From NCBI GenBank assembly GCA_022641775.1, contig JALCDS010000007.1:1-64000 (forward strand): DNA of 64,000 nucleotides, given 5' to 3'. A program made the position numbers and the translations under genes. This document shows positions 1 to 52,492 of this stretch, one piece after another. The notes beneath the pieces are model-generated. The model was not told the origin of the DNA. It ran no database searches and was given only the letters and a program-made list of their open reading frames with translations. This stretch comes from Clostridiaceae bacterium. GTDB taxonomy: Bacteria; Cyanobacteriota; Vampirovibrionia; Gastranaerophilales; Gastranaerophilaceae. Numbering within the stretch: the stretch's first letter is position 1; each line of letters begins with the position of its first letter.

Positions 1-3000
1 TGCCATAAATAATGAAGGTTGAACAATCAATTTACCTTGTTTAATTTCAAAGTTATATCCGGATTTTGAAGCAACACCGGCTGTAATCATTGCGAAATTA
101 TCGGTTCCGTATCGAGTATAAGCTTCGCCTGCACTACCACCTGCTGAAACTGCTAAACCTGTAAAGAAATTACCCTTATACAATGTTCCTGCAACACCAA
201 GTGTTCCACCTTCCATATTGGCACTTACGCTATCATATGAATAATGAGAACCGTTATAACCGATGAATGGAGAAATAACTCCGTAGAAACCGTGACCTAA
301 ATCTTTCAATTCAGAATCACCACCATACAATGCTCCATAACTCATATTATCAACTTTAGGCCCATTCTTCAATCCAACAGATTCAAAAGTTGTATAAGGT
401 TTTGTCCAGAAAGCTTCTCTATCTTCAGGGAGTTCTGCATCTCTATATACACCACAAACAAGTGATGCCGAACGATTTCTCATATTATTCTCGGCTTTCA
501 ATTTGTAAGGATACTTAGTATATCTATCCATATGATAGAAAGCATCATTCAATGTTTGAACCTGATTAAAGTATCCGCCTAATTGCGTAGCAACAGGAGC
601 TGCCATAATTGCAGGGTTTACAGAATTGTAATCCGGATTGTCACCGCCCTGTTTTGCAAAGTTCAAATAACCGTTTGAATATGACAAATTATATTTTTGG
701 ATTGGACCCATAACCGATGTTGTTTGCAAGTCTAAATAATTGCCTGATGCAAGCGCACCACCCAAAATATGTGCCTGTGTATTATTAAGTAATGAATCAC
801 TAACAACGCTTAATGAAGCATTATTTATAACAAATTTACCTGTACCTGATACATTTGTTGCAGAAATTCTATCTGAATTTGTTTCTGCATTACTGTTTTT
901 CAAATCAGCATCAAGTCTGTAATTAACATTTCCATTCAACGTAAGATTTGTGAAATTCAAGTTTTCTATACTTGCCGGGTTAGGATTTGTTGTCCAATTA
1001 CCGGAAGCATCCTTAACAGCATTTGTATTATGCAAGTCAAATGTTGTTCCACCTGCAAAAATTCCGTTTGTAATCGTTCCGATTTTTGTTCCTGAACCTA
1101 TTCCGAAAGTTCCGGAATTTACTGTTAAATTGCCAACAGTTCCGACAGTAGAATTCTTACCCGTTGAGAAATTACCTGAATCACTAATTGTAATATTTGA
1201 AACATCACCAATAGTTGATTTTTCACCTGTTGTAAATGCACCTGAACCTGATACATTAACTGTATTCAAATTCCCCAATGTTGAGTTTGCTTCTGTTGTT
1301 AAGTTACCTTCACTAACACCTAAACTACCGTTAAATCCGGATTGAGAATTTGTCAATGTTAATGTTGAAGCACCTGTTTTGGTAATTGTTCCTGTACCGG
1401 TAACGGTATTTGCCAAAGTTGTATCAACAGTTGTATTAACCTTCAATCCGCCATTTACACCAAGATTTGTTGTGCTTGTTGAACTAAGATATTTATTTGT
1501 TCCATTGGCGTTATATTGAACGTTTCCATTATTAACATCAAGTGTTCCGGTATAATTTGAGTCGTCGCCTGTCAAAATAACATCTTTTGAACCTGTTTTT
1601 GTAACAGTACCGGCACCTTTTAATACACCAATTTGGGTATCAGATTTATCAACATTCAAATCAAGTGAACCACCAACATTTGTTGCACCTTGAATATATG
1701 TATCACCGGAATTTGTTTGATTGAATGCGACTTTTCCAGTTGTAATATTCAAATCGCCACCAAATCCTGCATTTTGACCGGTAAGATTTAATGTACCATC
1801 ACCTGTTTTTGAAATTGTACCTGAACCTGATACATTCTGAATATTATCAGTATTTGCATTATTTATATTTAAAGCAGTACCACCTGCAACAGCTACAGGA
1901 CCTTCGACAAAGCTTCCGCCTGCACTTTGTGTATAATCAACAGTACCATTATTAATATTTAATGCACCTGTTAAGTTTTTGTTGTTTCCTGTCAAATCTA
2001 AAGTTCCGTCACCTGTTTTTGTTAAAGTTCCGTTACCCGCAAGACCGCTTGAGATTGATGAAGTTTTGCCTGTCGTTGTATTAAATTCAACATTTGTATT
2101 AGCTCCATCAATATAAATATCATTTGCACCGTTTTTATCTGTATTGTTACTAAATGTCGAATCTGTTATCTTCATATTGTTAGCTGTGTAAATTGCACCG
2201 CCAAGTCCGGCTGTTGATTTGTTTCCGGTAACATTGGCGTCTGTAATTGCAAAACTGTTTGAACTTGTATTATTGATAGCACCACCATTTCCGCTTGAAG
2301 TATTATTTGTTAAATCTACATTGTTAAGTGCTATATTTGAACTATTATTATTTGCATTTACAACAGAACCGCCTTTTATTGTATTCGTTGCATCACTTGC
2401 ATTGGCAATAGTTAAATTGTTAACTGTCAAATTTGTATTATCTTTGGTAACATCAAACATTGAATTAGTTGAACCATCGATTACTGTTGTGCCTTTAGTA
2501 TTACCGTTCACAGTAAATGTACCATGTTCTGTTTCGCCAAGATTATCTTTAATCGCATATGTTGTTGTATTATCAGAGAAGTTGAAACCTCTATTATTAG
2601 CTTCAGTTCCACCGTTATAGATATTTTCTTTTCTCAAAGAATCATTGTTCGCTTCAGAAGTTCTTGTCAATGTAACATCAGAACCATCAACATCTACAGC
2701 ATATGTATAAATATCAGTTGACCAAGAACCAATTGATGAACCTTTTCCGCTAAATGTTAATCCGCTCAAAACATTCAATTTAATAGGAACAGCTTCAATA
2801 CCATCATCTTTTTCTTTATAATCCTGCAAATTCAATGAATTAAGGATTACAGAACCACCACCTGAATTTGAAACCAATTTATCATATACATGTGCATTTG
2901 GAGATTGGAAAATAACATCTATATTTAATTTTGTATTATTTGTAGTTGTTAAATTGTTAAATGTAGCTGTTGTAATATCAGCCGTAGCCGGTTTTGAAGC

Positions 3001-6000
3001 AGATGCCATATCTATTGTAGAATTATCTACAGTATAATTACCTGTATATGTATTTGTTGAATTTAATTTTAAAGTAGAATTATCAGCAAATATTATGTTA
3101 TTACCTGTTGAATGAGTCAAATCACTTGATAATGAATATGTTCCGCCGTTGAATTGTGCGGTTGCACCTTTATCTGTATTAGCAAATGAAACAGTTTTTG
3201 AAGATGTATTCAAATTAATATTGCTACCTGTTCCTGCAGTATATGTAAATTTACCATTATTAATCTGGGTATTGATATCTAATTCCGTTGCATTGGCAAT
3301 AGTAGAGGTATAAGCTAATTCACTGTTGCCATCTTTTATCAACAAACCAGAGCCTGATACATTTTTCAATGTATCATCTTCACTTGCTTTATATGTTAAT
3401 GTTCCGTTTACTACTGTTGCACCTGAAATGTATTTATTTGCACCTGCATTATCAAATAATGCAGAAGAACCGTTGTTAATAATAAATTTAGCAGTTGAAC
3501 CTGTTTCAGAACCAAAGTCTGAATTGTCACCGGTTAAGGTTACAACACCTGTTCCTTTTAGATTTATATTTCCGGTTGAAGTTACAACTCCGCTTGATTG
3601 CAAACCTGATACAGAATTCAAGGTTATAGCTTCCGTATTTGCCAAATCAAGACTTGCATCTTTTGCTATCTGATATGTTGTAGAACTACCGAAGAATTTG
3701 CTGCCTGTACTTGTTGTATAAGAAAGAGTACCTGCTTCAACTTTTGCAGTTCCGCCAAAACCTGAATTGTCACCTGTCAAATTCAAAGTTCCAGTACCCA
3801 ACTTATCAAGAACACCTGTTCCTGAAATTTTAGCTATATTATCAGCTGTATCATTTGTATATTTTAAAGTTCCGTTTTGTTCAATTGCAGTTTCACCACC
3901 GACATAAGATGTATTTGTACCTTTTGTATAAGCTAATGTTCCATCTTTTATCGTAGTTGTACCTGTAAATTCTAAATTTGAACCTATTAAATCTAAATTA
4001 CCATTATTTGTTTTTACAAAATTACCTGTACCTGAAATATTACCTAACGCTTGATTTGTTGTTGTATTAGAAATATCAGCAGTCAATGTACCTGCAGTTT
4101 CGATTGATGTCGTACCTGCAAAATATTTATCACTATTAGAAGTTGCAGTATAATTCAAATCACCTGCATTAATTTTTGTTGCACCTGTGAAGCCTGAATT
4201 ATCACCTGTTAAATTAACAGTTCCCAATCCTAATTTATTAAAATTACCACTTCCTGAAACTTTCTTAAGATTATCTGTCAAAGTATTATCAACAGTATAA
4301 TTTAAAGTTCCTGTTGTATCTATAACGGTACTTCCTGAAATGTATGAAGTTGAATCATCTTTCTTCTCATAATTCAAAGCACCATCTGCAATTTTTAATG
4401 CTCCGGTAAATCCTGAATTTTTACCTAGTAAATCTAAGGAACCAACACCTGATTTTGTAATATTTCCTGTCCCTGATACGTTTTTAATATCATCAGCTGT
4501 TGAATTTGAGATATTTAATGCACCGTTTACCGCAACATCACCTGATACAAAACCATTATTAACAGTTTGTGTGTAATTAACTGTTCCTTCATCAACCGCA
4601 AATTTACCTGTCAAACCTGAATTGTCACCTGACAAATTCAATGTACCTTTATCGGTTTTTGTCAGTGAGCCTGTTCCTGCAAGACCGCTTGCGATAGTTG
4701 AAGTATTATTTTCAGTTGTTTGGAAAGTTACATTAGCTGTTTCATCTATATAAATATCATTTTGTTTACCGTTTTTGTGGGTATTTAATTTTGTCGTACC
4801 AAAACTTGAATCAACAATTGTCATATCTTTATTTGTATAGATTGCACCGCCCTTTGAATCCGTTCCAGTTGCAGAGTTTCCATCAGCCGTAATATTGGTC
4901 AATGTCATGCCTGTCGATGTATTATAAATCGCACCACCATTTCCACTTGCCTTGTTACCTGAAATCGTTGAATTTGTTAAAGTAAAGGATTTACTTGCTT
5001 CATTTGCAATAGCGCCACCATTACCGGCTAAGACTTCATCATTTTTGAAATCAACATCTGTTAATGTAACTGTTGAATTAGCGTTATTTGTATAAATTAC
5101 AGAACCGTCTTTTACCTTACTTGTATCGTAGCGTTTTGCATTTTCAATTGAAACTTTTGAAATATCTAAATTAGTCGGAGCTTGTAATTCAAAGAATGAA
5201 CCATTTTTTATATCTTTAGAATGACCTGCTGTAAAGGCATCAGGTGTAATTGTATAAATTGCATTCCCTTTTGCATCAGTTCCCGGTGTTATATAATCCG
5301 TAACTTTAGTTTTATATTCTGAACCATTATCATAGTAATCAGTATAATAATAATCTGTACCATCAGAGGTTAATCTTACATTATTCTTGTCAAGCGTTAA
5401 ATCTTTCAATTCACCTGATAACAAGCTCTTTGTAGTACCGATAGTTTTACCTATAATTGTGAAATTATCTTTGCTTGTTGTGTCTAAATCACGATAAATA
5501 TGATAACTGTTATCTGTTTCCGTATTACCTACAAAACTAAAACCTCTGTTACCACCTGTATAATAACTTATATTGTATCTGTTCAAGTCTCTCAATGTAT
5601 CTGTACTTGATGGACCTTTTGCACTTATTTTTATACTATCTGCAGTGTAATTTGTTTGTGCCGAATCAAGTCCATATCTATAAATATTCGTTGCCCAACT
5701 CAAAATCTCAGTATCGTTTGCCGTTGCGACATGAAGCTTTTGAGATGCGTCATTAATAACTTTTATCTTTTGATATTGTTCAGGGGCTGTGGCAATAGCT
5801 CCGTTATCATCAACAATAAATAATTTTGTAATATTCAAATATTCATCGCTCGTTGCACCTTTTGTAACAGTAATTGTGTCACCTGTAGGATAAACATTAT
5901 TTGTAGGATCATATACAAGATTTACATCTATTCCAATATTTGAAGTTCCCTTGCCTGAAATTGTTTCAGCATCAAGTGAATTAAATGTGTAATTATTTAT

Positions 6001-9000
6001 CGCATGGTAATCTTGTGTCAAATCAAGTGTTGAGCTGCTTAATTTGTAATCATTTGTATAATTTGTTATACCATCAACTACATTTACTGTTGCATTATTA
6101 AATCCGATTACATTTTTTACATTCGAGTAACTTCCGGAATTCAAAACATAAGTTCCGTTATTCAAAGCAACAACATTGTTTGAATTTCCATCAGTAGTCA
6201 AGAAGTTTGAATTAAGAGTAATTGTACCGGAATTATTCAGGTTGAATGTTCCGCCATTTTTTAAATTTGTCTTTGTATTATCAAGAGTCAAATCTGTATC
6301 AGACAAATTATAATTTAATGTTGAACCAACAACATTGATTGCAGAACTGTTTGACAAACTGTTTGCATAACTTCCAGTATAAGTCAAAGTTCCTGCGTTT
6401 ACATTTGTTTCTCCTGTAAATCCTGATTCATCACCGGTTAAAGTAACAGTACCTTCACCAACTTTGTTCAATGTAGAACTTGAACCTGAAATGTTTGCAG
6501 ATACAGTTGTTGAAACGCCATTATTGTTATTCAAATTCAAGGTCCCCTTATCAGTAATAGAACCTGTTGTATAACTTGTATTATAAATATTTGTTGTAGC
6601 ACCTGAATTTACTGTCAAATTATCATTTGTTAAATTAGATAATTCACTTGTCGAAGCCGAATCGCCTAATGATAAAGTCCCTGTATTTGCTGTCATATTT
6701 TGATTTGTAATTTTATTTGTAAGATTTACCGTTCCATCTGAATTTAATGTGCCATATTTTGTTTTTGCTGATGATGAAATTTCATCTTTTATTGTCATGG
6801 CACCGGTCGTTGCAGCCAAATTTATTGTACCGTCATTTGTAATATTTGCAGACGTTGTAGAATCAACATTGTTATTGATAGTTAAATCCTTATTTGCCTC
6901 CAAATTCAATGTAGCATCAGCATTGTTATATATGTATGAAGTTCCGCTGTTTGATGTGAATGTAGAATCAAGCAGTGTTAAAGTTCCTGCGTTAAATATA
7001 GCAGAACCGTTTGTTGCTGAGTTTTTCTCAAATGTTGAATTGTTTATGTTGTTAATTGTACCTATATTATAAATCGCACCACCATCTGTAGCAGAGTTTG
7101 ATTTGAAGGTTGAATTATTTATAGTTGAAATTGTACCTGTACCGGCATTATAAATTGCGCCACCCATACCATCTGTGGCTTTATTAGACGTAAATGTTGA
7201 ACCGTTTATGCTGGCAATTTTTCCGTTTTCATCATTATAAATTGCTCCGCCTTTAACATTGGCCCCACTTGTTGTCGTTGCTTCATTTGATGTAAATGTT
7301 GAATTAATATCACCAGAAATAGTGCCGTTATTATATATTGCACCACCTCTTGTTGCAGTATTTGAAGTAAATACAGAATTGATACCGTTTGTAATAGTTC
7401 CGCCATTAACAATTGCACCACCTGCACCATTTGTCAGGTTTGAACTATTTGCAATAAAGGTTGAATTATTTATGCTTTCAATTGTACCTGAGCCTTCATT
7501 AAAAATAGCTCCGCCGCTACTACCTGCAATATTACCTTCGCCTGTTCCAGTACCACCAAAAGTTGCCTTAATATTTCCTATTGTACCTACATTCGAAATT
7601 GCACCGCCATGATAAACAGTTGTGTTAGATTTAAAGGTATCATTGTCTATAGATGTAATCTTCCCATTGGTTTCATTACAAATTGCACCACCATTTTTAG
7701 CAGTATTTGAAGTAAATACAGAATTACTTAATTTTGTAATCGTTCCGGCATTATAAATAGCACCACCCATACCTGAACCAACACCTGAAGCATCACTTGT
7801 ATTATTTTGCATTGTTGTATTTTCAATACTGATTTTTGAATCTGTTGCTGTTGCATTTATAACAGAGCCTTGTGTACCTTTTGCATCTTGTATTGTTAAA
7901 TCTTTTATATTCAAAGTTGTATTAGGATTTACCAATTCAAACATTGACAATCCTGTAGTTGCAGAACTATCAGCCTTTGCAATAATCGTATTACTTGAAC
8001 CTGCCACATTTGAGCCTAAGACATTTAATGTCCCGGTTAAAGTTTTATCAAGGTTTTGACCTATATAATAAGGTGTTGTACCAATGAAGTTAAATGTTCT
8101 TGTATTTGAACGTTCATGATTCAATATATATAATGAATTTTTACTCAATGCGGTAGCTGTAAGTGTCAATATACCATTTTGAGTTGATGCCGTATAATTA
8201 TATATTTCAGATTTTATTGTATTTGATAAAGTTGTTTTTGTTGTTCCGAAAGTTAAATTATCGCCTAAAACAGTATAATTTCTTGTTAATAAAGTCCCAT
8301 CATCAGAAGTTTTATTCAAAACATTTATATTATCCACACTGCTGATTTTTACTGTACTATTTGTACCTGCATTTGTCGAAATTAATTTATCAGAAGTTGT
8401 TCCGTTCAAACTTATATCTAATTTTATATCAGTATTATCTGTCGATAATTTATTAAATGTATAATTGTTTGTTGCATTATCAATCATACTGATAGTTGAA
8501 GCATTATCAGTTGAATAGTTGCCTGAATAATTTGTTGTTCCAAGATTTACAGTTGCAGATTTAAAGTTTACAGTGTTACCACTGCCATTTGCAAGGTCAG
8601 AATTCAGATTGTAAGTACCCTTATTAAATGTTGCAGTTGCATCTGTAGCGCCTGAATTAAATTTAACATTTGAAGTTGAATCAAGAGTATATGTATTATT
8701 CGCTGATGATGCATTATAAACAAGATTTGAATTACTTGCGATATTGAAATTATTATTAAATGTTGTGTTATCGGCTGTATTATTAACAGTCAAGGTTCCG
8801 CCATTTACATTTGCTGTTCCTGTAAATGTTTTTTCTAAAGTAGTTGTTAAAGCACCGGTTCCTTCTTTATTCAATATACCAGTGCCTGTAATATCCCCAA
8901 TTGTATCAGCAGTTGTGGTATTGTTTGTATATTTTAATATTCCGTTAGCACCGATTTTTGTTGTACCGCCAACATATGAATTACCGGTACCTGATGTATA

Positions 9001-12000
9001 TGCCAAAATTCCTGATTGAATATCAGTTGTTCCGGTATATCCTGAATTAGCTCCTGTCAGATTTACAATTCCATTATGAGATGAACTTGTATCATTTATA
9101 ATAAATTGAGCAGTTGAATTTGTATCTGAAGACAGTCCGTTTACAGTTTGATTTGCTGTAACTCCGTTCGGGTCAATTTTTAATGTTGTTCCGTTTGCAA
9201 GTTTTACCCCTCCACCCAAGAAGGTTGTATCAGTTGAATTTGTTGCTTTGTAATCAACTTCTCCGCCATTAATATTGAATTGACCTGTATAACCCGCATT
9301 TTGTCCGTTAAGCGTCAATATCTTTGAACCAGATTTATTAATTATTGCAGTTTTATCAGTTGAAGTTAAACCGTTTGCGATTAAATCTGTTTTGCCGTTA
9401 TCATTAATATTTAAGATTGAACTTGTTCCAACATTAACCTTGCCACCAAAGAATTTGTCTGTTGAACTTGCAGCACTATATGTCAAAGTCCCTTTATTTA
9501 CATTTGTTTGTCCAAGATAATTTGATTGATTTCCACTAACAACAACTTCACCCAAACCATCTTTATTCAAGGTTGAAGTTGAAGTGCCTTCAATATTTAC
9601 AGCAATATCTGTTGAAATACCGGTATTATTGTTCAAGTTCAAGGTCCCCTTATCCGTAATAGAACCTGTTGTATAATTTGTATTATAAATATTTGCCGTT
9701 GTACCTGAATTTACGGTTAATTTATCATTTGTCAAATTAGATAATGCACTTGTCGAAGTTGAATCGCCTAATGATAAAGTTCCTGAATTTACGTTAATAG
9801 CTTGGTTTGCTATAGCATTTGTAAGATTTACGTTTCCATTTGTATTAATTGTACCTGAGGTACCTGATGTACTTGCTTTACCTATAATTGCATCTTTTAT
9901 TGTCAATGTATCAGTTGTTGTTGAACTTGTTTCTTTCAAGTTTAAACTATAATTATTTGTAATATTTGCAGTTGTATTATTATTAATCGTCAAATCTTTA
10001 TCAGCTAATATACTGAAATTGCCTGTATTATCAATATATGACGTTCCTGTATTAGATGTAAATGTCGGATCAAGCAATGATACATCACCTGTATTGTATA
10101 TAGCAGAACCGTTTGTTGCGGTATTATTTGTAAATGTATCAAATGATGAAATATATGTATCTGTATTATATAAAGCACCACCTTTTTCTGTTGCACTATT
10201 GCCATTAAATGTAGTTTTATAAGAACCAATTCCACCTGTATTATAAATTGCACCACCATTTTTGGCTTTGTTTGAAGTAAATGTATTGGCACTCGTATCA
10301 TCATAATCCGTGCCTATATATATAGTTCCATAAGCCGTATTATTATATAATGCGCCACCATTTGCTGTTGCAACGTTACTTGATATAGTTGAACCGTTTA
10401 TCTGGAATAAATCTATATCATTATTATAAATAGCGCCACCATTTGTTGCTTTACTATTTGTCAAAATTGCATCTTTTACTGTGATATAAGAATCTATATT
10501 ATTTGCATAAATTATAGAACCGTCACTTGCACTATACGCATCTTCTACAGTTACATTTTTCAAGGTGAAATCTGTATTATTAACTATCCTAAAGAATGAA
10601 CCATTTTTTATATCTGTAGAATGACCTGCTGTAAAGGCATCAGGTGTGATTGTATAAATTGCATTCCCGCTTGCATCAGTTCCCGATGTTATATAACCTG
10701 TTACATCAACGCCATCATACTTGTATGTAGTACCTGTTTTTTCAATTCTTGAATCATCTTGGCTAATAACTATATTGTGCAAACTTCCTGAAATGAATGT
10801 TGAATTTGAACTTGTATCAGATACAGTAAAATTACCTGCCGCGGTATCAGAAAGGCTTCTACCTATATAGTATGTATTGGCTTTGCCATCCTTAATCATA
10901 CTAAAGCCTCTGACATCTGAGGTTTTGTTCATTTTGTATAAAGAATCAGCATCAGCGACTTTGTCTGCCACAAATTTTATTGAATCATAAGTCGACGGAT
11001 TATCAGGATCAGTAGAAGATTGAGCTGCTGTAATATTGTATTCATAGACATTCGTTGACCATTTTGCAAGTTCAAAATTACCGGAAGCCAAACTTGCATC
11101 ACTTAATAATGTAATGGTACTCTTAGAAGTTGCATTGTTGATTACTTGAACTTGTTTTGTATGTGAACTATCAGCAAAAATTCCATTATCTGCATCAATA
11201 CCGATTGTTGTAAGTTTTATTTTACCGGAACCATTGTTAACATTAATCATATCTGCCTTAGGAGATTGCCCTGAAGCTGTATCATAAGTCAAATCGACAT
11301 CTACACCAAATGTAACATAATCCGTACTTGTTGAACCTATAGTCAAGTTATCAAAAGTGGAGGATGTAATTTTTTCATCCCACATATTTATCGTTGAATT
11401 ACCGTTAAGCGTGTAATTACCATTATATGTAGCGCCATCTTTTACATTAACTAAAGCGTTGTTAAATATAATATTATTGCCTGTGGCATTAGCGATATCA
11501 CTATTTAAAGCAAAATTTCCTGTATCAAATTTTACGGTTGCACCCGTTGCACCCGTATTAAATTTTATTGTAGAAGTATTATCAAGCGTATATGAATCAG
11601 ATTTATTAGTTGAATTGTAATCTAATTCAGCTCCACTTGCGACATTCGCAGCTATATTGAATTTGCCTGCTGTTGTTTGAGAAGTCGGTGTTACACTCAA
11701 AACCCCACCATTTACATCTGCAGTACCTGCAAAATCTGTATTTTTTAATGTTGTAGTTCCGGTTCCAGCTTTTACAATTTTACCAGCACCGGATACTGTC
11801 AAAGCTTCATTTGTATCACTTGTATAATCTAATATTCCGCTTGTTTCAATAACAGTCGAACCCGTTGTATATTTTGTTGTATCCGATTGTGTAACCGCTA
11901 AAATGCCTGATTTTATATCAGTTGTACCGGTAAATTTTGAATTATCACCAAGCAATGTCAAAATGCCATTTTTACTTGCACTTGTATCATTAATAATAAA

Positions 12001-15000
12001 TTGTGCAGTATTATCTTCTGAAGTTAAATCACCTGCTATATTCTGAGTAGTTGTATTTCCGTTTGTATCAATCTTTAATGTTGTACCACTTGCAAGACTT
12101 ACATTCCCGCCGACAAATGTATCACCTGAATTTGTTGCTTTGTAATCAACTTCTCCGCCATTGATATTGAATTGACCTGTATAACCCGCATTTTGTCCGT
12201 TAAGCGTCAATATCTTTGAACCTGATTTATTAATTGTACCTGCACCTGTGGTTTGTGAATTCAAACCGTTTGAGGTTAAATCTGTTTTGCCGTTATCATC
12301 TATATTTAATACAGTGCCATTATAAAGATTTACTCCTCCACCGAAGAATGAATCACCGCTATCTGTTGCTTTATATGATAATGTTCCGTTTTGTATATCA
12401 ACTGCACCTGTAAATCCTGAATTTATACCGCCAACATTTAATGTTCCGGTACCGAGTTTATTTAATGTACCTGTACCTTGAATACCACTTGATATAGCAG
12501 ATGATGTATCATCATTTGTTGTAAAATCTATTGTCTTTCCATTCAAATAAATATCATTTTTAGTCCCGTTTGCAGTATTACCGCTAAATGATGAATCTGT
12601 AATATCTAAATCAACATTAGAATAAATCGCACCACCAAGACCACTCGTGGATGAGTTATTGCTAAATCCTGAATTTTTAATTACAACAGCAGATTTTGCA
12701 TTGTTCAAATATAAAGCACCACCATTACCGGTTGATTTATTATTTTTAAAATCAACGCTATCAACGTCTAATGTTGAATTTGCATTGTCCATACTAACAA
12801 CAGAACCTGTTCCATTTTGATAAGCATCAGCAAACGTAACATTGTCCAAATGTAATTTAACACCTTCATTCGCACTTGAAATTTTGAAGAATGAACCGTT
12901 TGTATCGGATGAAAATGCTGTATGTGCAATTGTATAAGTATCATCAGTTGCATTATAAGAAACTTTATCTGTCGGTATTGTTACACCATCATATTTGCAT
13001 GCAGTAATATTCCCTGAAACATCTTTTGTAACGCTTATTCTTGAATCATTTGATTTGACCGTTATATCAACTAATTTACCTGAAATAGTCGTTGTATTTT
13101 TATTCGTGTCAGAAACGGTAAATTCACCAGCCAAAGTTTCACTTAAACTACGACCAATATTATAAGTTGTACTATTTAAAACATTGAACCCTCTTGTATC
13201 GGAATGATTGTTCATTTTGTATAAAGAATCCGCATTTGCAATATTTTGGGCAACCAATCTGACAGTATTACCAGATACACTAACCGCATAATCATAAACA
13301 TTGTTACCTTGTAAAATTATAGATTTCAAAGCACTCAATGTGGCAGATGAACCACCTTGTAATACAGTGAAAGTTTTGTCAGTTGTCAAACCGTTATCAT
13401 CAGTGATATTTAATGCTGAAACATCAACAGTTCCTGAAGACGTCGAACCTAGAGTTAAAGTATCACTTGCACTATTTGCACTTAACATTTTTAAGTCAAG
13501 CGTGAGTTTTGTTGTATCAGTTCCTGCAATTAAATTGCTGATTGTAATATTGTTTATTGCACTATTTATCAAATCTATTGTTGAATTAGTTGTTGCAACA
13601 TTAGCTGATAACGTTCTATCTCCATTGAATTTTATTGTAGAATCTTTAACAGATATATTTGAATAAGTTGTACCTGTTCCAAGATCTTTGTTGATAGTAT
13701 AATCAGCGCCACCTGTCAAAGCCAAGTTTGAAGTGCTTGCACTTGCAAACCCAACTGAATTAATCGCAACATCACCTGAGCCTACAACCTTTAAAGTAGC
13801 ATTACTTGCAATATTTATATTTGAAGGAAGAGTATCACCGCTAAGCGTATAAGTTAAGACAGAACTTGTACCCACTACGTTTACTGTTGCAGTACCTGTT
13901 ACAAATTTATTTCCACTTTGAGTAGCATCAAATGAAGCTGTCCCTTGTGTTACTATGCCACCACCGGTTTTACCTATATTCAAAACTCCGGTAAATTGGG
14001 AATTATCTCCGGCTATATTCAAATTGCCTGCGCCATCCTGATTTACAGTACCAGCACCTGATAAATTTTTAATGTTATCAGCTGACTTATTTGAAATAGA
14101 TAAAAGATTATTAGCTGCAACAACAACAGGACCGCCGACAAAACTACCGTCTGTAGTTTGAGTATATTTAATACCTCCACCTGTATCACCTTTTACATTT
14201 AAAGTACCTGTGAAATCTTTATTTACACCGGATAATGCAATAAATCCGGTACCCGTTTTTTCAAAATTACCACTGCCTGATAAACCACTTTGGATTGATG
14301 AACCTTTTGTCAAATCAGCTTGGAATGTAACTTTTTTACCATCAGCTATATAAATATCGTTTTGAACTCCACCTGCCTTATTATCGGAAAATTTAGAATT
14401 CTTTATTGTAATATTATTTCCTGCATAAATTGCACCACCAGATTTTACCGCAGTATTTCCGGTAAATGAAGTAGAATCAACAGTTAAATTTGCACCATCA
14501 GCAACATTGATTGCACCACCGTTTTGAGAATAAAAGCCATGGTACTCAGATATATTATTAACATTTAACGTTTGTCCAGATAATACATTAATTCCATTTA
14601 TTGTAGCTGCAGTTGCAGTAATTTTATGATTGTTACCATTAATATTCAAAGTTGAATTTGCACGTTCCATATCACCTAAAGACTGAGTGACACTTTCATC
14701 TTTAGTCATATTATAATTTCTTGGATCAGTAGTATAACCAATATTATGAACAGCTTTATAAAGACTGTCTTCACTTGCACTCATAAATGTCAAAACACCT
14801 TGACCGGAAGAATTCATTGAATATGTAATAGTATAATTTTTTGAGACGCCACTAGCTTTAGATATAGTAACAGTAGTTGCTTTGGAAATTGCCTTACCTA
14901 AAACGCTATCAGAAATGATTATTTGGGTATTATCAGTAGAACTATCTGACATAATATTTATAGCATTAATTACAATATTACTTGCACTTGTATTAGAAAG

Positions 15001-18000
15001 AGCAGCCGCTGTGATTATATCACCTTTAGTATTTGCTAAGTCGACATCCAAGCCCAAATTGATATTACCGTTTAAAGTAACAGTTTTGCCTAAACTTGTT
15101 GATGCAAGTGAACTATTCATAAGGTCAATTGTTCCTGCATTTGCATAAAACGCAACCGAACCGCTGTCAAAATTACCTACACCGCCTGTCTCAGTTGATG
15201 AACCAAATTTTAATGTACCACCATAAAGATTAACTATATTTCCGCTTACAGTATTGTTAATTTCCACAATCCCTGATGTTGGAGCATCTGTTGGGATATA
15301 ATTCCCTGTTAACCCTGTACCGGTTTGGTTTATATTAACAGTTCCGGAATCACCTGTAATTGAATCATTAAAGATAACATTGTGATGATCCCCGGCATTT
15401 AGATTTAAAGTACCTGACTTACCTTTATATTTGGCGTTATAAACTGCATTATACTTAATACCACCAGAAGTTGTATTGTTCCCTGAAAAAACTGCATCTT
15501 TGGTATCTGCAATTATATTTGATACTCCGCCATTATTGAATATAGCACCACCATTTGTCGCTGTTGTATTACTTGTGAAAGTGGAATCATAGAAAGTTGC
15601 TACGCCGGAATTATAAATCGCACCGGCATCATCTCTGGCTGAATTTCCAGTAAATGTAGAATTTTTTATTGTAACTTTTGTAACGTTTTCCCCAACAGAA
15701 ATCGCCCCGCCACGTGCTCCTTTACTATTAACAGTAGCACCATTGTTAGAGAAAGTTGTATTATCAATATTTAACGTAATATTTAATGTATTCTTTGTAT
15801 CCGGAACAGTACCGATTGCCCCACCAATTTTGGATGTATTACTTGTAAATGTACTATCTTTAATATTAGTTGTACCATTAGCGACTCTGATAGCACCGCC
15901 TCGTCCTTTAGAACTATTACCGATAAAATCGGTATTTGTAAAACTTTCAGTTCCGGTAGAACCCCAATATATAACTCCACCATCAGTATTAGGGGCACTG
16001 TTCGATTCAAACAAAGAATCTGACACTGTTAAATTTGAAGTGCCGGTTGACCAAATTGCACCGCCACCTTGCTCACTAACACTATACGAGGTCTTGTTTT
16101 GGGAAATAATACTGTTTTTAATATTTAAGGTATCAGCACCATTCAGCTGGATAAAACTACCATTACCTCCGGAAGAAAATTTGTAAAAACCTGCATTGGA
16201 AGATGCATCATAAGTTGCGGAAGTATCCCCGACATCTTGAATATTTATTGTTTGAGGAGTGCTTGTAGCTCCTGCCGTGACTATTCCGGATTTAGAATTC
16301 CCGTTGATATTATGCGTATTACCCTTAATATTCAATGTTGAACCGGCACTTTGCATTGTTCCAAGGTTTTGAGTTTCTGTTTCATTATCCGCTAAAATAT
16401 ATGTTCTATTACCATTTTTATACTGAACTGCTTCGTGAAGAGTCGCCGAACCTGAATAAGAATATGCAAGTTGACCTTTTTTCGATGTTGTTGAAAATGT
16501 AATTTTACCAAGTGAAGAAATTAAAGCAGTATTTAAACTTGAAACATCCAAAGTTATATTATTATTATTTGTACCTGTTATAACATTTAATTTTCCGCCG
16601 GTTGTAGGTAAATCGCCAAAAATATTAATATCAGAAATCTTCAATGTACCTGAAGATGAACCCACATTAAATACATCACTTGTACCGCTTGTACCGCCTG
16701 ATAAATTGGCATCAATCGCAATACTTCCGCCTGAACCCTTTAGACTTGTTAAAGTATAAGTCTTTAAGTCATTATCAATAGTATTAAGAACTCCGCCTTT
16801 TAAATCTAAATTAACAAAAGTTCCAAAATCTCCGCTTGAAGTTACTTTATTAACGGTTGCACTCCCGAGTTTTAACGTTCCGCCTGATAAATTAACATTG
16901 TTATATGAAATTGCATTGTTTAAATAAACAGTACCTGTATTATCAGGTGATACAGATGATGAATTTATGTTAATAGTAGGAGGCCCCCAAGTTACATCTT
17001 TACCTGTAATTTTGTCGTTAAACGTTACAGAATAATTTTTCGTTGCATTTATATTTAATGTACTGCCACTACCAACACCAGTATAAATAGCATTACTTCC
17101 GGTACTGTCAGTATTTCCGCTAAATAAAATATTATTATCAGATGCAACAATATTTGTAGTTGGGCTTTGATTTTCAGGCATATATATAGCACCACCAAGT
17201 CCTGCTGCATGATTTCCTATAAAATTTCCGCCTGTAACAGTCGTAGTTCCAAAATTATAAATAGCACCACCATCACTTGTTGAAGTATTTGAAATAAAAT
17301 TTCCATTAATATTATTTATTTTTGAAGTCTGCCCATTGTAAATAGCCCCACCATTAACTGCACTATTGCCGGTAAAATCACCTGTAATTTTTGATATTGT
17401 ATTTCCATATCCGTTATAAATAGCACCGCCATTGCCCGTTGCGGTATTTGAAGTAAAGTTTGCAGTAGAGGTTCCTATTGAACCACCTTGTGCCAAATCA
17501 ATAGCACCACCATCACCTTTGGCAGTATTTCCTGTAAAACTTCCTGATAATGTTGTTATTTTCCCACTATTATATACAGCTCCACCATTTTGGGTTGAAG
17601 AATTCGCAATATAATTACCCGTTATTGAATCTATAGTATCATTATTGTTACTGATTACTCCACCGCTATTAGTTGATGTATTTTGAATGAAATTACCATC
17701 AACACTCTTTATAGTAGAACCCCAAGAACTGGCATCAAAAACCGTACCCGAATTATCATAAAATGTACTATTTTTAACTATTATAGTACCATATTGAGCT
17801 ATCGTAACAGGTTTTGTAAACCCACTCATGCCGGTAGCTTGGTAATATTTTATACTTCCATCAGCTTGCGCTACCTTGATTGCACCAGTTGTGCCTGATG
17901 TAGTTTCGGTCATCGTATTACCGATATTTTGTATAGTCAGAGTTTTACCTGAACTTACAGTTATTCCGGAAGAAGTTGCAGTTGCAGTTATATTATGTTT

Positions 18001-18225
18001 GTTACCTTCAAGGGTAACAGGGGTTGCACCTAATGTGCCTAAATCTCCGCTACCTAAGATATCTCCGGTAACGTTAATTGTTGATGCAGTTGATGATTTA
18101 ATAGCAGTTTGCAGTGCAGAATAATCGATGACATCTGCTGATGCTTTTTGAGGGCACATAGCTAAGACAGCTATCGCTGCCGATAATAAAATTTTTGAGC
18201 TCTTCTTTTTATCAATACTTCTCAT
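1..18225 (-). CDS. Giant Pmp-type autotransporter adhesin, 3' end outside window
   Basis: The frame opens at the ATG at 18225 and stays open to base 1: 6075 codons without a stop, checked by translating several distant segments in phase. Residues 1-30 are a signal peptide (basic start, hydrophobic core, then QKASA before DVIDY). The passenger is rich in Asn, Thr, Ser and Gly. It alternates more than 30 GGA[I/L/V] motifs with FxxN-type partners, as in chlamydial polymorphic membrane proteins, with autotransporter-associated beta-strand repeats of the form GTLxKxGxGTLxLxGxN. Both predict a right-handed beta-helix. Seven large modules open with a DSLYK-like segment near residues 595, 1150, 1665, 2430, 3365, 4205 and 5195. 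A linker near residue 5890 (NPAIMAAPVATQLGGY) leads to an autotransporter barrel starting about residue 5938 (FWTKPYTTFES). Only about 138 of the usual 270-300 barrel residues are in the window. Likely an outer-membrane, surface-displayed adhesin; ligand unknown. Confidence 0.93.
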   Translation of the reverse strand, partial: MRSIDKKKSSKILLSAAIAVLAMCPQKASADVIDYSALQTAIKSSTASTINVTGDILGSGDLGTLGATPVTLEGNKHNITATATSSGITVSSGKTLTIQNIGNTMTETTSGTTGAIKVAQADGSIKYYQATGMSGFTKPVTIAQYGTIIVKNSTFYDNSGTVFDASSWGSTIKSVDGNFIQNTSTNSGGVISNNNDTIDSITGNYIANSSTQNGGAVYNSGKITTLSGSFTGNTAKGDGGAIDLAQGGSIGTSTANFTSNTATGNGGAIYNGYGNTISKITGDFTGNSAVNGGAIYNGQTSKINNINGNFISNTSTSDGGAIYNFGTTTVTGGNFIGNHAAGLGGAIYMPENQSPTTNIVASDNNILFSGNTDSTGSNAIYTGVGSGSTLNINATKNYSVTFNDKITGKDVTWGPPTININSSSVSPDNTGTVYLNNAISYNNVNLSGGTLKLGSATVNKVTSSGDFGTFVNLDLKGGVLNTIDNDLKTYTLTSLKGSGGSIAIDANLSGGTSGTSDVFNVGSSSGTLKISDINIFGDLPTTGGKLNVITGTNNNNITLDVSSLNTALISSLGKITFSTTSKKGQLAYSYSGSATLHEAVQYKNGNRTYILADNETETQNLGTMQSAGSTLNIKGNTHNINGNSKSGIVTAGATSTPQTINIQDVGDTSATYDASSNAGFYKFSSGGNGSFIQLNGADTLNIKNSIISQNKTSYSVSEQGGGAIWSTGTSNLTVSDSLFESNSAPNTDGGVIYWGSTGTESFTNTDFIGNSSKGRGGAIRVANGTTNIKDSTFTSNTSKIGGAIGTVPDTKNTLNITLNIDNTTFSNNGATVNSKGARGGAISVGENVTKVTIKNSTFTGNSARDDAGAIYNSGVATFYDSTFTSNTTATNGGAIFNNGGVSNIIADTKDAVFSGNNTTSGGIKYNAVYNAKYKGKSGTLNLNAGDHHNVIFNDSITGDSGTVNINQTGTGLTGNYIPTDAPTSGIVEINNTVSGNIVNLYGGTLKFGSSTETGGVGNFDSGSVAFYANAGTIDLMNSSLASTSLGKTVTLNGNINLGLDVDLANTKGDIITAAALSNTSASNIVINAINIMSDSSTDNTQIIISDSVLGKAISKATTVTISKASGVSKNYTITYSMNSSGQGVLTFMSASEDSLYKAVHNIGYTTDPRNYNMTKDESVTQSLGDMERANSTLNINGNNHKITATAATINGINVLSGQTLNVNNISEYHGFYSQNGGAINVADGANLTVDSTSFTGNTAVKSGGAIYAGNNITIKNSKFSDNKAGGVQNDIYIADGKKVTFQADLTKGSSIQSGLSGSGNFEKTGTGFIALSGVNKDFTGTLNVKGDTGGGIKYTQTTDGSFVGGPVVVAANNLLSISNKSADNIKNLSGAGTVNQDGAGNLNIAGDNSQFTGVLNIGKTGGGIVTQGTASFDATQSGNKFVTGTATVNVVGTSSVLTYTLSGDTLPSNINIASNATLKVVGSGDVAINSVGFASASTSNLALTGGADYTINKDLGTGTTYSNISVKDSTIKFNGDRTLSANVATTNSTIDLINSAINNITISNLIAGTDTTKLTLDLKMLSANSASDTLTLGSTSSGTVDVSALNITDDNGLTTDKTFTVLQGGSSATLSALKSIILQGNNVYDYAVSVSGNTVRLVAQNIANADSLYKMNNHSDTRGFNVLNSTTYNIGRSLSETLAGEFTVSDTNKNTTTISGKLVDITVKSNDSRISVTKDVSGNITACKYDGVTIPTDKVSYNATDDTYTIAHTAFSSDTNGSFFKISSANEGVKLHLDNVTFADAYQNGTGSVVSMDNANSTLDVDSVDFKNNKSTGNGGALYLNNAKSAVVIKNSGFSNNSSTSGLGGAIYSNVDLDITDSSFSGNTANGTKNDIYLNGKTIDFTTNDDTSSAISSGIQGTGTLNKLGTGTLNVGGINSGFTGAVDIQNGTLSYKATDSGDSFFGGGVNLYNGTVLNIDDNGKTDLTSNGLNSQTTGAGTINKSGSKILTLNGQNAGYTGQFNINGGEVDYKATNSGDTFVGGNVSLASGTTLKIDTNGNTTTQNIAGDLTSEDNTAQFIINDTSASKNGILTLLGDNSKFTGTTDIKSGILAVTQSDTTKYTTGSTVIETSGILDYTSDTNEALTVSGAGKIVKAGTGTTTLKNTDFAGTADVNGGVLSVTPTSQTTAGKFNIAANVASGAELDYNSTNKSDSYTLDNTSTIKFNTGATGATVKFDTGNFALNSDIANATGNNIIFNNALVNVKDGATYNGNYTLNGNSTINMWDEKITSSTFDNLTIGSTSTDYVTFGVDVDLTYDTASGQSPKADMINVNNGSGKIKLTTIGIDADNGIFADSSHTKQVQVINNATSKSTITLLSDASLASGNFELAKWSTNVYEYNITAAQSSTDPDNPSTYDSIKFVADKVADADSLYKMNKTSDVRGFSMIKDGKANTYYIGRSLSDTAAGNFTVSDTSSNSTFISGSLHNIVISQDDSRIEKTGTTYKYDGVDVTGYITSGTDASGNAIYTITPDAFTAGHSTDIKNGSFFRIVNNTDFTLKNVTVEDAYSASDGSIIYANNIDSYITVKDAILTNSKATNGGAIYNNDIDLFQINGSTISSNVATANGGALYNNTAYGTIYIGTDYDDTSANTFTSNKAKNGGAIYNTGGIGSYKTTFNGNSATEKGGALYNTDTYISSFDTFTNNTATNGSAIYNTGDVSLLDPTFTSNTGTSYIDNTGNFSILADKDLTINNNTTANITNNYSLNLKETSSTTTDTLTIKDAIIGKASTSGTSGTINTNGNVNLTNAIANQAINVNSGTLSLGDSTSTSALSNLTNDKLTVNSGTTANIYNTNYTTGSITDKGTLNLNNNTGISTDIAVNIEGTSTSTLNKDGLGEVVVSGNQSNYLGQTNVNKGTLTYSAASSTDKFFGGKVNVGTSSILNINDNGKTDLIANGLTSTDKTAIINKSGSKILTLNGQNAGYTGQFNINGGEVDYKATNSTDTTFLGGGVKLANGTTLKIDPNGVTANQTVNGLSSDTNSTAQFIINDTSSSHNGIVNLTGANSGYTGTTDIQSGILAYTSGTGNSYVGGTTKIGANGILKYTNNTTTADTIGDITGTGILNKEGTGALTTTLEKTFTGTANVNGGTLTVNNTADNTTFNNNFNIASNSNLVYNASSANNTYTLDSTSNVKFNSGATDATATFNKGTYNLNSDLANGSGNTVNFKSATVNLGTTNYSGNYSTDNASTISMIDNATNNYTFNKLSTDNTDIKLDISLNGTTSDKLISTNAGTNSTVKISSVDNINVLNKTSDDGTLLTRNYTVLGDNLTFGTTKTTLSNTIKSEIYNYTASTQNGILTLTATALSKNSLYILNHERSNTRTFNFIGTTPYYIGQNLDKTLTGTLNVLGSNVAGSSNTIIAKADSSATTGLSMFELVNPNTTLNIKDLTIQDAKGTQGSVINATATDSKISIENTTMQNNTSDASGVGSGMGGAIYNAGTITKLSNSVFTSNTAKNGGAICNETNGKITSIDNDTFKSNTTVYHGGAISNVGTIGNIKATFGGTGTGEGNIAGSSGGAIFNEGSGTIESINNSTFIANSSNLTNGAGGAIVNGGTITNGINSVFTSNTATRGGAIYNNGTISGDINSTFTSNEATTTSGANVKGGAIYNDENGKIASINGSTFTSNKATDGMGGAIYNAGTGTISTINNSTFKSNSATDGGAIYNIGTINNINNSTFEKNSATNGSAIFNAGTLTLLDSTFTSNSGTSYIYNNADATLNLEANKDLTINNNVDSTTSANITNDGTINLAATTGAMTIKDEISSSAKTKYGTLNSDGTVNLTNKITNQNMTANTGTLSLGDSASTSELSNLTNDNLTVNSGATTNIYNTSYTTGSITDKGTLNLNNNNGVSTTVSANISGSSSTLNKVGEGTVTLTGDESGFTGETNVNAGTLTYTGSYANSLSNSSAINVVGSTLNYNLSDTDLTLDNTKTNLKNGGTFNLNNSGTITLNSNFLTTDGNSNNVVALNNGTYVLNSGSYSNVKNVIGFNNATVNVVDGITNYTNDYKLSSSTLDLTQDYHAINNYTFNSLDAETISGKGTSNIGIDVNLVYDPTNNVYPTGDTITVTKGATSDEYLNITKLFIVDDNGAIATAPEQYQKIKVINDASQKLHVATANDTEILSWATNIYRYGLDSAQTNYTADSIKISAKGPSSTDTLRDLNRYNISYYTGGNRGFSFVGNTETDNSYHIYRDLDTTSKDNFTIIGKTIGTTKSLLSGELKDLTLDKNNVRLTSDGTDYYYTDYYDNGSEYKTKVTDYITPGTDAKGNAIYTITPDAFTAGHSKDIKNGSFFELQAPTNLDISKVSIENAKRYDTSKVKDGSVIYTNNANSTVTLTDVDFKNDEVLAGNGGAIANEASKSFTLTNSTISGNKASGNGGAIYNTSTGMTLTNITADGNSATGTDSKGGAIYTNKDMTIVDSSFGTTKLNTHKNGKQNDIYIDETANVTFQTTENNTSTIASGLAGTGSLTKTDKGTLNLSGDNSGLTGKFAVDEGTVNYTQTVNNGFVSGDVAVNGALNISNSTADDIKNVSGTGNITKSGVGSLDLLGKNSGFTGALKIADGALNYEKKDDSTSYISGSTVIDTTGTLNYTVDNTLTDNLKKVSGSGNFNKLGLGTVNLTGDNSGFTGATKINAGDLNYTATSNSDKYFAGTTSIETAGTLTADISNTTTNQALGNISGTGNFVKTNNGNLDLIGSNLEFTGTTTIKDGTLAYTKGTNTSYVGGETAIEQNGTLKYTNDTADNIAKISGTGVLDKLGTGTLNLTGDNSGFGGTAKVEAGTLSYTTSTGSKFFGSSTTYQIAKDASLDLANTEAITLNSVSGLQSSGVVTSTGNINLKGTGVVTLTGDNSDFGSETGSTAKFIINNGSSALFDNAGANKYISGATVVNGTLTYKASEDDTLKNVSGSGLLIKDGNSELAYTSTIANATELDINTQINNGKFTYTAGTGSNINLNTSSKTVSFANTDKGATAQFNGGTYSLSSDLTHSTGNNIIFADNSTLKLNSTNTYTGNYTVDNSTIDMASASKPATADITTATFNNLTTTNNTKLNIDVIFQSPNAHVYDKLVSNSGGGSVILNSLNLQDYKEKDDGIEAVPIKLNVLSGLTFSGKGSSIGSWSTDIYTYAVDVDGSDVTLTRTSEANNDSLRKENIYNGGTEANNRGFNFSDNTTTYAIKDNLGETEHGTFTVNGNTKGTTVIDGSTNSMFDVTKDNTNLTVNNLTIANASDATNTIKGGSVVNANNNSSNIALNNVDLTNNTSSGNGGAINNTSSNSFAITDANVTGNKSTAGLGGAIYTANNMKITDSTFSNNTDKNGANDIYIDGANTNVEFNTTTGKTSSISSGLAGNGTLTKTGDGTLDLTGNNKNLTGALNINNGTVDYTQSAGGSFVEGPVAVAGGTALNINNANTDNIQNVSGSGTISKTGDGTLNLTGQNAGFGGDLNITTGKVAFNQTNSGDTYIQGATNVGGSLDLNVDKSDTQIGVLKGAGTVTKTGSKDVILTGDDSNYTGTLDVNNGNVQYNANGTNKYLSSTSTTNLGVNGGLKVNTTVDTTLANTVTGTGTITKTGASTLTLTNSQSGFNGSLGVSEGNLTTEANSTLGNLNTVNVSGSGAFTTGEKSTIGDVSNITISDSGNFSTGKNSTVGTVGNLTVNSGTFGIGSGTKIGTITNGIFAGGTTFDLHNTNAVKDASGNWTTNPNPASIENLNFTNLTLNGNVNYRLDADLKNSNAETNSDRISATNVSGTGKFVINNASLSVVSDSLLNNTQAHILGGALASGNYLDLQTTSVMGPIQKYNLSYSNGYLNFAKQGGDNPDYNSVNPAIMAAPVATQLGGYFNQVQTLNDAFYHMDRYTKYPYKLKAENNMRNRSASLVCGVYRDAELPEDREAFWTKPYTTFESVGLKNGPKVDNMSYGALYGGDSELKDLGHGFYGVISPFIGYNGSHYSYDSVSANMEGGTLGVAGTLYKGNFFTGLAVSAGGSAGEAYTRYGTDNFAMITAGVASKSGYNFEIKQGKLIVQPSLFMA
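5191..5298 (-). repeat. Long intragenic repeat A, copy 2
   Basis: About 108 bp inside the giant autotransporter gene, nearly identical to 10591-10698 with only a handful of mismatches. The copies lie exactly 5400 bp apart, a multiple of three, so both are read in the same frame. The encoded peptide includes YTITPDAFTAGHS and KNGSFF. Confidence 0.9.
6509..6684 (-). repeat. Long intragenic repeat C, copy 2
   Basis: About 176 bp similar to 9611-9786 at an offset of 3102 bp (1034 codons), with scattered substitutions. It encodes LSNLTNDNLTVNSG and TGSITDKGTLNLNNN type strands of the beta-helix. Confidence 0.88.
9239..9343 (-). repeat. Long intragenic repeat B, copy 2
   Basis: About 105 bp, differing from 12131-12235 at only about two positions. 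The offset is 2892 bp, or 964 codons, so the frame is kept. It encodes an autotransporter-associated beta-strand repeat (ILTLNGQNAGYTGQFNING). Confidence 0.92.
9611..9786 (-). repeat. Long intragenic repeat C, copy 1
   Basis: Partner of 6509-6684. It is more diverged than repeat B, so the three repeat pairs look like duplications or conversions of different ages within one gene. Confidence 0.88.
10591..10698 (-). repeat. Long intragenic repeat A, copy 1
   Basis: Partner of 5191-5298 at a distance of 5400 bp. A third, diverged relative lies near 12880-12960 at the same point of the neighbouring module, so this is a recurring part of the module rather than a chance match. Confidence 0.9.
12131..12235 (-). 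repeat. Long intragenic repeat B, copy 1
   Basis: Partner of 9239-9343. The near identity at the DNA level, including synonymous positions, contrasts with the much more diverged repeats around it and suggests recent duplication or gene conversion. Confidence 0.92.
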
Positions 18226-18494: not shown

Positions 18495-19578
18495 TTAGCT
18501 CTGTCTTAAAAAACTTTCCACAAAACCGTCAATATCTCCGTCCATGACCGCATCAACATTCCCGACTTCATAGCCTGTTCTATGGTCTTTTACCATCTTA
18601 TACGGATGGAAAACGTACGAACGAATTTGTGAACCAAAATTTATGTCAACATTTTCACCTTTCAATTGAGAAAGTTTTTTTTCATGCTCATTTCGTTTTA
18701 TTTCCAAAAGCTTGGATACCAAAATCTGCATTGCATATTCTTTGTTTTGCAACTGTGAACGTTCCTGTTGACATTTTACAACGATACCGGAAGGCTTGTG
18801 CAAAATTCTAACGGCAGTTTCAACCTTATTTACGTTTTGTCCACCTGCACCACCAGAACGCATCGTCGTTATTTCGAGTTCATCAGGAGGGATTGAAATT
18901 GTTTTTTCAAAATCTGCAATAATCGGAGAAACCTCTAATGAGGCAAAACTCGTTTGACGTTTACCATTTGCATTATACGGAGAAATTCTAACCAATCTAT
19001 GGACTCCTTTTTCGGCTTTTGCATAGCCATAGGCATACTTTCCTGAAATTTTAAATGTAGCAGATTTTATTCCGGCTTCATCGCCATCAAGTTTGTCCAG
19101 AAGTTCGACTTTCCATCCGCGATTTTCTGCCCAACGGAAATACATTCTCAAAAGCATACTTGCCCAATCCTGAGCATCAGTGCCTCCGGCTCCGGCATTA
19201 ACCGTCAAAATTGCATCGGCATCATCATATTCTCCGCTCAACATCATCTGAATTTCAAATTTGTCCAAAGCATGTTCCATATCTTCCAAAAGATTAGAAC
19301 TTTCCTCAATCAAATCAACATCAGACATTTCAAGTGCAACTTCACTATCTTCCAAAACAGATTCCCAATGATTTACAAAATCTATATTTTCCTTAATTTC
19401 ACGACTTTTTGAGCCCAATTCGGACGCCAATTCTTGATTTGACCAAACCTCTGAAGATTGCAACTTAGTTTCAATCTCTTTTAATTCTTTTTCCTTTTGA
19501 GGTAAGTCAAAGACACTCCTTGATTTTTTCAAATCTTGGAGTTAACAAATTTATTTTTTGTTTCAATTCAGTTTCCAT
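18495..19578 (-). CDS. prfB: Peptide chain release factor 2, with programmed +1 frameshift
   Basis: RF2 releases finished proteins at UGA and UAA codons. The complete gene starts at the ATG at 19578. After 23 codons (METELKQKI...) it meets an in-frame TGA at 19509-19507. The site reads AGGAG-TGT-CTT-TGA-C: a Shine-Dalgarno-like AGGAG just upstream of CTT TGA C, as in the classic RF2 autoregulatory shift. Reading continues in the +1 frame from GAC at 19508 ([13 protein letters not shown]), giving about 360 residues, the normal RF2 length. The catalytic GGQ loop is present ([10 protein letters not shown]). The stop-codon recognition tripeptide, normally SPF, reads SPY ([13 protein letters not shown]). 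The ATG at 19532 gives an uninterrupted frame but lacks the N-terminus, so it is not the true start. No strong ribosome binding site precedes 19578. Confidence 0.96.
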
Positions 19579-45167: not shown

Positions 45168-45284
45168 TTTTCTCTCCTTATAATATTATATATAAGTTTA
45201 TCATATCAAAACAAAATATCCGGATTTGTAAAACTTCTTAAAAATTTGCAAATTTTTATATTTACGAGTTTTATAGAAAATATC

Positions 45285-52450: not shown

Positions 52451-52473
52451 AAGATTTTTAGAAAAAAAATCTT
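52451..52473 (+). promoter_or_regulatory. Hairpin just before the ribosome binding site of the SLH gene
   Basis: Arms AAGATTTTT and AAAAATCTT pair perfectly around AGAAA. The strong binding site AAGGAGGT (52481-52488) begins 7 bases after the hairpin. The rest of 52250-52450 holds no gene. This AT-rich hairpin may stabilise the message or tune translation. Confidence 0.4.
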
Positions 52474-52492
52474 GAAACACAAGGAGGTAAAA

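Follow-up and report, generated by a model that had tools for sequence, protein, structure and literature searches.

Type Va autotransporters are placed in Proteobacteria, Chlamydiales and Fusobacteria by one review, in which the adhesin group with the widest size range has passengers of up to 3,333 amino acids (PMC9289746). In known autotransporters, the autochaperone (AC) domain is found close to the barrel and measures about 110 residues (PMC5767081). Chlamydial Pmp proteins have one repeat region, with 9-25 rungs, and a single Pmp middle region, and structural work holds that their FxxN/GGA rungs put loops on one face (PMC10715098). Here, we analyze a window of 64,000 nucleotides (contig JALCDS010000007.1, positions 1 to 64,000; G000:C7:1-64000 in our numbering) from a metagenome-assembled genome (MAG; 1.71 Mb, 41 contigs) of a Gastranaerophilaceae bacterium, and in particular the giant gene on the minus strand at window 1-18225. 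We conclude that this gene very probably encodes a type Va (classical) autotransporter with eight concatenated passenger units. Autotransporters of type Va that carry Pmp and PATR repeats are already known in kind; what is new are the tandem units of passenger plus AC-like domain, the giant size throughout the lineage, a barrel subfamily so far unrecognised and the tail that follows the barrel. We found no open-access paper linking Gastranaerophilales with autotransporters, in a search outside which most subscription journals fell.

Like the classical type Va proteins BrkA, AIDA-I and EspP, the gene product combines a signal peptide, a beta-helical passenger, an AC-like domain, a pore helix and a 12-stranded barrel. 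It differs from them in the length of the passenger (about 5,830 aa, compared to the 3,333 aa cited above), in the presence of eight AC-like domains instead of one, in a barrel subfamily that stays below the threshold of the PF03797 profile, and in the post-barrel tail. With chlamydial Pmps it shares paired FxxN and GGA[ILV] rungs, matches to PF02415 and TIGR01376, and the occurrence of large paralogous families of surface autotransporters; unlike Pmps, it adds PATR repeats and several units in tandem. The Pmp middle domain gave no Pfam match in either the whole frame or the pre-barrel region, and membership in the Pmp family proper was rejected, the FxxN/GGA[ILV] repeats notwithstanding. The likeness to Pmps proposed in a first-pass annotation of the sequence thus holds for the repeats and not for the rest of the protein, where the middle domain is not matched and the barrel subfamily falls below Pfam thresholds. 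PATR repeats within the passenger are shared with the PATR or autotransporter-associated repeat proteins (PF12951, TIGR02601), from which the gene differs in that these repeats alternate with Pmp-type rungs in the same passenger.

The frame comprises 6075 codons with an ATG start and zero stops, and is open at its 3' end. The first base of the window is also that of contig C7, so that it is the edge of the assembly, and not the choice of window, that truncates the frame. The probability of 6075 stop-free codons at the local base composition is ~1e-202, and the GC content is even (0.32-0.37) throughout. We counted 34 GGA[ILV] motifs, compared to a mean of 1.0 and a maximum of 6 in the shuffled protein, and 50 FxxN motifs, compared to a mean of 24 and a maximum of 33. 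Profile searches (Pfam/NCBIfam) matched Chlam_PMP (PF02415, 4e-21), POMP_repeat (TIGR01376, 2e-19), PATR (PF12951, 3.6e-15) and autotrns_rpt (TIGR02601, 1.2e-16), with both the Pmp-type and the autotransporter repeats spread along the frame and alternating within one passenger. The N-terminus, MRSIDKKKSSKILLSAAIAVLAMCPQKASA (about residues 1-30, window 18136-18225, minus strand), is a typical signal peptide according to sequence inspection and a heuristic test. These results bear out the first-pass annotation, which had listed an unbroken minus-strand frame of at least 6075 codons, a signal peptide, over 30 GGA[I/L/V] Pmp-type repeats, and Pmp-type together with classic autotransporter repeats in one passenger. 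The longest near-identical DNA repeat inside the frame is 118 nt at 97% identity (window 9226-9343 and 12118-12235, between the units termed M4 and M5 below), so that a gross repeat collapse is unlikely, the exact number of modules not being proven thereby. It is confirmed that the frame is a genuine single gene, truncated at its end, with a product of more than 6,000 aa.

The main architectural point, overlooked in the earlier annotation, is the tandem arrangement of passenger units, each with an AC-like domain. The passenger consists of eight units of about 510-990 aa that are mutually alignable (up to 54% identity over 350 aa); this likeness was seen after the frame had been split into modules, self-BLAST of the whole frame having yielded nothing. 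Each unit is composed of a cap, followed by Pmp and PATR rungs and by a terminal AC-like domain of ~150 residues. A related cap opens units 2-8, its clearest form being SLYKxN..xRGFNF, then YxI. All units lie on the minus strand. From the N-terminus, they are M1 (residues ~31-594, window 16444-18135, with 6 GGA[ILV] and 8 FxxN motifs and the AC-like domain at 16447-16902); M2 (residues 595-1153, window 14767-16443, AC-like domain 14776-15240); M3 (residues 1154-1666, window 13228-14766, AC-like domain ~13324-13659); M4 (residues 1667-2427, window 10945-13227, opening with the cap motif SLYKMN..TRGFN, AC-like domain ~11188-11478); M5 (residues 2428-3363, window 8137-10944, AC-like domain 8152-8580); M6 (residues 3364-4208, window 5602-8136, with 9 GGA[ILV] motifs, AC-like domain ~5605-6165); M7 (residues 4209-5195, window 2641-5601, AC-like domain 2659-3165); and M8 (residues 5196-5863, window 637-2640), which carries the barrel-proximal AC-like domain at 643-1131. 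The 118-nt stretch of M4/M5 is far more alike than the other repeats, as would be produced by recent gene conversion or duplication.

The same AC-like domain adjoins the linker and the barrel in single-unit relatives, normally once per protein. A profile of this pre-barrel domain built from relatives only, with the window excluded, recovered the domain at the end of 7 of the 8 units in the frame; the best internal E-value was 2e-19 (M2) and that of the pre-barrel copy 1.5e-27, compared to at most 4 bits for shuffled sequence. The AC copy number correlates with frame length (Spearman rho 0.94 for 31 frames of 703-6075 aa, some of them truncated at a contig end), and a single AC-like copy is present in proteins of 975-1500 aa. 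In a tree of 49 copies, the AC-like domains cluster across species by position and not by protein: the last copies group together (support 99/97), window M5 groups with the units 3 of relatives (99/93), and window M6 groups with units 4 and with the units 2 of two shorter proteins (100/100), the copies of M1-M3 and M7 being without firm placement. This clustering by position between species indicates that the array is old, that its order has been kept, and that it is not an assembly artefact. The junction between two units (AC5, cap and the Pmp array of M6; residues 3197-3760, window 6946-8637, minus strand) is predicted with high confidence to form one ordered beta structure (pLDDT 92.6, pTM 0.90).

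Beyond M8, an alpha-helical linker into the barrel pore (window 544-615, minus strand), recognized by homology to residues 166-189 of the model of relative L003, precedes a beta-barrel of 12 strands. Its first half (about 6.5 strands, window 1-414, minus strand) is present, and was assigned by homology to relatives and by the model. The remaining ~115 barrel residues and a tail of ~20 residues are beyond the contig end. The missing ~140 C-terminal residues were sought through the rest of the assembly and not found, the sole match being a paralogue on contig C1. In a scan of bacterial genomes, the barrel region was shared with 79 loci at 44-65% identity, mostly from MAGs of Candidatus Gastranaerophilales, Melainabacteria or Cyanobacteria, or from uncultured rumen or gut bacteria. 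In nearly all of these relatives, the frame runs ~110-120 residues further and closes with a GVGLQAGFRWAIGK-type last strand (GFRWxxGK-type). The AlphaFold model of L003, a relative with 65% identity, has a pLDDT of 86 and a pTM of 0.79 (57-row alignment), and contains an N-terminal AC-like beta domain, a helix at 166-189 and 12 long strands. With this model, Foldseek returned autotransporter barrels first, namely BrkA (TM 0.85, 2.8 A), EspP, AIDA-I, Hbp and NalP.

By sequence, the barrel is harder to recognize. The last 220 residues of the frame have no Pfam match, PF03797 is without a match anywhere in the host genome, and searches of PDB sequences with the barrel profile and the AC profiles gave no real match. 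Within the family of the window, PF03797 is above the cut-off in 22 of 97 genomes, and some more distant members of the barrel family (among them G142:C17, G150:C1 and G062:C1) match both the barrel profile (~1e-170) and PF03797 above cut-off. Taken together, the fold match to BrkA, EspP and AIDA-I and the members that match both profiles identify a divergent autotransporter barrel, so that the failure of PF03797 is a limit of profile detection and not an absence of the barrel fold. A non-autotransporter barrel was considered and rejected. The complete barrels of relatives, in combination with the model, the fold matches and the members with both profiles, point to a type Va autotransporter. 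The start of a beta-barrel had been noted in the first-pass annotation, and the last ~140 residues are indeed homologous to complete barrels in 79 relatives. Its general claim, a giant type V autotransporter in a non-photosynthetic cyanobacterial lineage, agrees with the repeat profiles, the barrels of relatives, the model and the fold matches. Among the profiles it had named as a check, POMP_repeat and the autotransporter repeat match the gene, whereas the PF03797 barrel profile does not.

The barrels of the relatives are followed by a tail. At least 8 residues, usually 16-30 and lysine-rich, stand behind the last strand in 49 of 52 parsed barrels, ending in L003, L028 and most other barrel loci with motifs such as KKVIKSL or PELPKTxIxL; the remaining 3 barrels end at GFRWAIGK. 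The tail is disordered in the L003 model. Classical autotransporters are expected to finish at the last barrel strand, and the tail is therefore considered a feature of the lineage.

Giant size is typical of the Gastranaerophilaceae autotransporter family and not peculiar to the window gene. Complete giant relatives comprise 4817, 4825, 4829, 5228, 5248 and 6011 aa, with signal-peptide-like starts and tails, and a further complete relative (G234:C9) has 6185 aa, with a signal peptide, 10 AC copies, a whole barrel and a tail. The window gene is exceeded in size by an open frame (G102:C7:322000-349066; L102, L103) with a length of at least 8459 aa, 10 AC-like copies and 81 GGA[ILV] motifs, which is cut by a contig end before the barrel. 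Thus, the large size noted earlier for the window gene is real, and it is not unique within its family. In a sample of 292 genomes from the phylum, the barrel profile matched 109, of which 108 belong to the family of the window (about 130 genomes sampled there, with up to 28 candidate barrel places per genome) and one to a second family of the same order. Pmp repeats are spread like the barrel, with weak traces in two further families of the class. A search of the barrel and AC-like region against plasmids gave no match, and no synteny was found between the flanks of the window gene and those of the giants of relatives. The host genome has two barrels, that of the window gene and that of the paralogue on C1 (L091 about 4440-4460; G000:C1:87000-94000, minus strand). 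The paralogue falls into two frames (703 and 676 aa) with an overlap of ~10 bases; this frameshift inside the Pmp repeats could be an assembly error, decay or slipped-strand variation.

Several observations weigh against the interpretation of the gene as a type Va autotransporter with an AC-like array. It is cut by the contig end, and only half of its own barrel is seen; PF03797 is reached by sequence in none of the aligned barrel set (this gene and 57 aligned relatives); and the C-termini of relatives are not the aromatic residue predicted in the first-pass annotation, a GFRW-type last strand being followed instead by GK and usually by the tail of 16-30 residues. TamB was not found in the host genome (single profile PF04357; MAG 94% complete), and in a control for this search Synechococcus does give a TamB match. 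The AC-like copy of M6 was detected solely with a profile from the units of the window itself, the resemblance of the junction model to solved passengers is weak (E 4.5e-3 for that of EspP), and none of the solved autochaperones matches the AC-like domain in sequence. The AC-like domains also have no match in Pfam. We use the name "AC-like" because homology to known autochaperones is not demonstrable by sequence or by fold. Indeed, it is conceivable, albeit rather unlikely, that the repeated domain is a generic beta-helix cap or spacer: the lack of a sequence match and of a strong fold match would fit, as would its length of ~150 residues compared to ~110 for known ACs (PMC5767081). However, the same domain directly precedes the linker and the barrel in single-unit members, which is the AC site in known autotransporters (PMC5767081).

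The eight units could also belong to a polyprotein, i.e., one barrel would deliver eight passengers that are cut free on the surface at their AC-like ends. Every unit is built like a complete small autotransporter passenger, proteins with only one unit occur, at about 1,000-1,500 aa, and the units are conserved by position, as though they had separate jobs; nevertheless, we consider this improbable, given that no protease domain or cleavage motif is recognizable in the frame and that the junction is predicted as a well-ordered, uninterrupted structure and not as a flexible linker. There is very little probability that the extreme length is an artefact of short-read assembly, in which one frame was stitched together from the repeats of several autotransporter genes. 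The MAG consists of 41 contigs, one of which ends inside the gene, and internal DNA repeats are present, the M4/M5 stretch being the longest near-identical one; against this, complete giants of 4817 to 6185 aa occur in independent genomes, the order of the AC-like domains is kept by position across species, most repeats are far below 97% identity and the composition is uniform. A chimeric assembly was considered and rejected. Equally hard to believe is a relict gene without a barrel past the contig edge, the product of which has ceased to be secreted. The C-terminal end is indeed missing from the assembly and the paralogue on C1 carries a frameshift among its repeats, but the frame is stop-free over more than 18 kb, the available half of the barrel is intact, with 65% identity to complete barrels, and the contig simply stops at that point.

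For the autotransporter with eight units, the following course of secretion can be envisaged. The signal peptide would direct the protein through Sec, the C-terminal 12-stranded barrel would be inserted by BAM, and the passenger would cross via the barrel and fold on the cell surface from the C-terminus outward. Two Omp85 (BamA/Omp85) proteins of the BAM machinery are encoded in the host genome. The barrel-proximal AC-like domain would start folding as in usual autotransporters, whereas each internal copy may plausibly restart and cap the helix of its own unit, and such staged folding might allow a chain of ~6,000 residues to fold without stalling. The predicted product is a segmented surface fibre, a rod of ~100-140 nm, as estimated from ~5,830 residues, with 20-27 residues and 0.48 nm per rung. 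Because the loops of Pmp rungs lie on a single face and the frame yielded no enzyme domain, its most likely role would be adhesion, the partner being host mucus, epithelium or neighbouring cells. More broadly, and with somewhat more doubt than belief, we suggest that these proteins grow by concatenating passenger and autochaperone units in front of one barrel, with internal autochaperones serving as stations of re-nucleation (or release) that lift the length limit of type Va secretion and permit segmented fibres of 4,000 to >8,000 residues, and that the tail is an extra periplasmic element absent from classical autotransporters.

Gastranaerophilales are common, hardly cultured gut bacteria, the contacts of which with their hosts are largely unknown. 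With giant modular autotransporters, a multi-copy family that is nearly universal, their surface acquires a concrete molecular identity. The array of tandem AC-like domains is a testable case for the folding of very long passengers during type V secretion. It should be noted that current profiles do not see the barrel subfamily, and annotation pipelines will therefore miss it.

Other genes of the window deserve brief mention. At window 18495-19532 (minus strand), prfB, encoding release factor 2, has a classic programmed frameshift site at 19507-19522 (AAGGAG, then CTTTGAC), and the listed frame of this gene is the post-shift part only. An SLH-domain protein at window 52472-54550 (plus strand) is probably a porin of the cyanobacterial SLH type, which fits an outer membrane. 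A frame of 698 aa at window 45246-47342 (plus strand) has a C-terminal HNH nuclease domain, and remote relatives of this protein (22-23%) adjoin autotransporter genes in L027 and L032.
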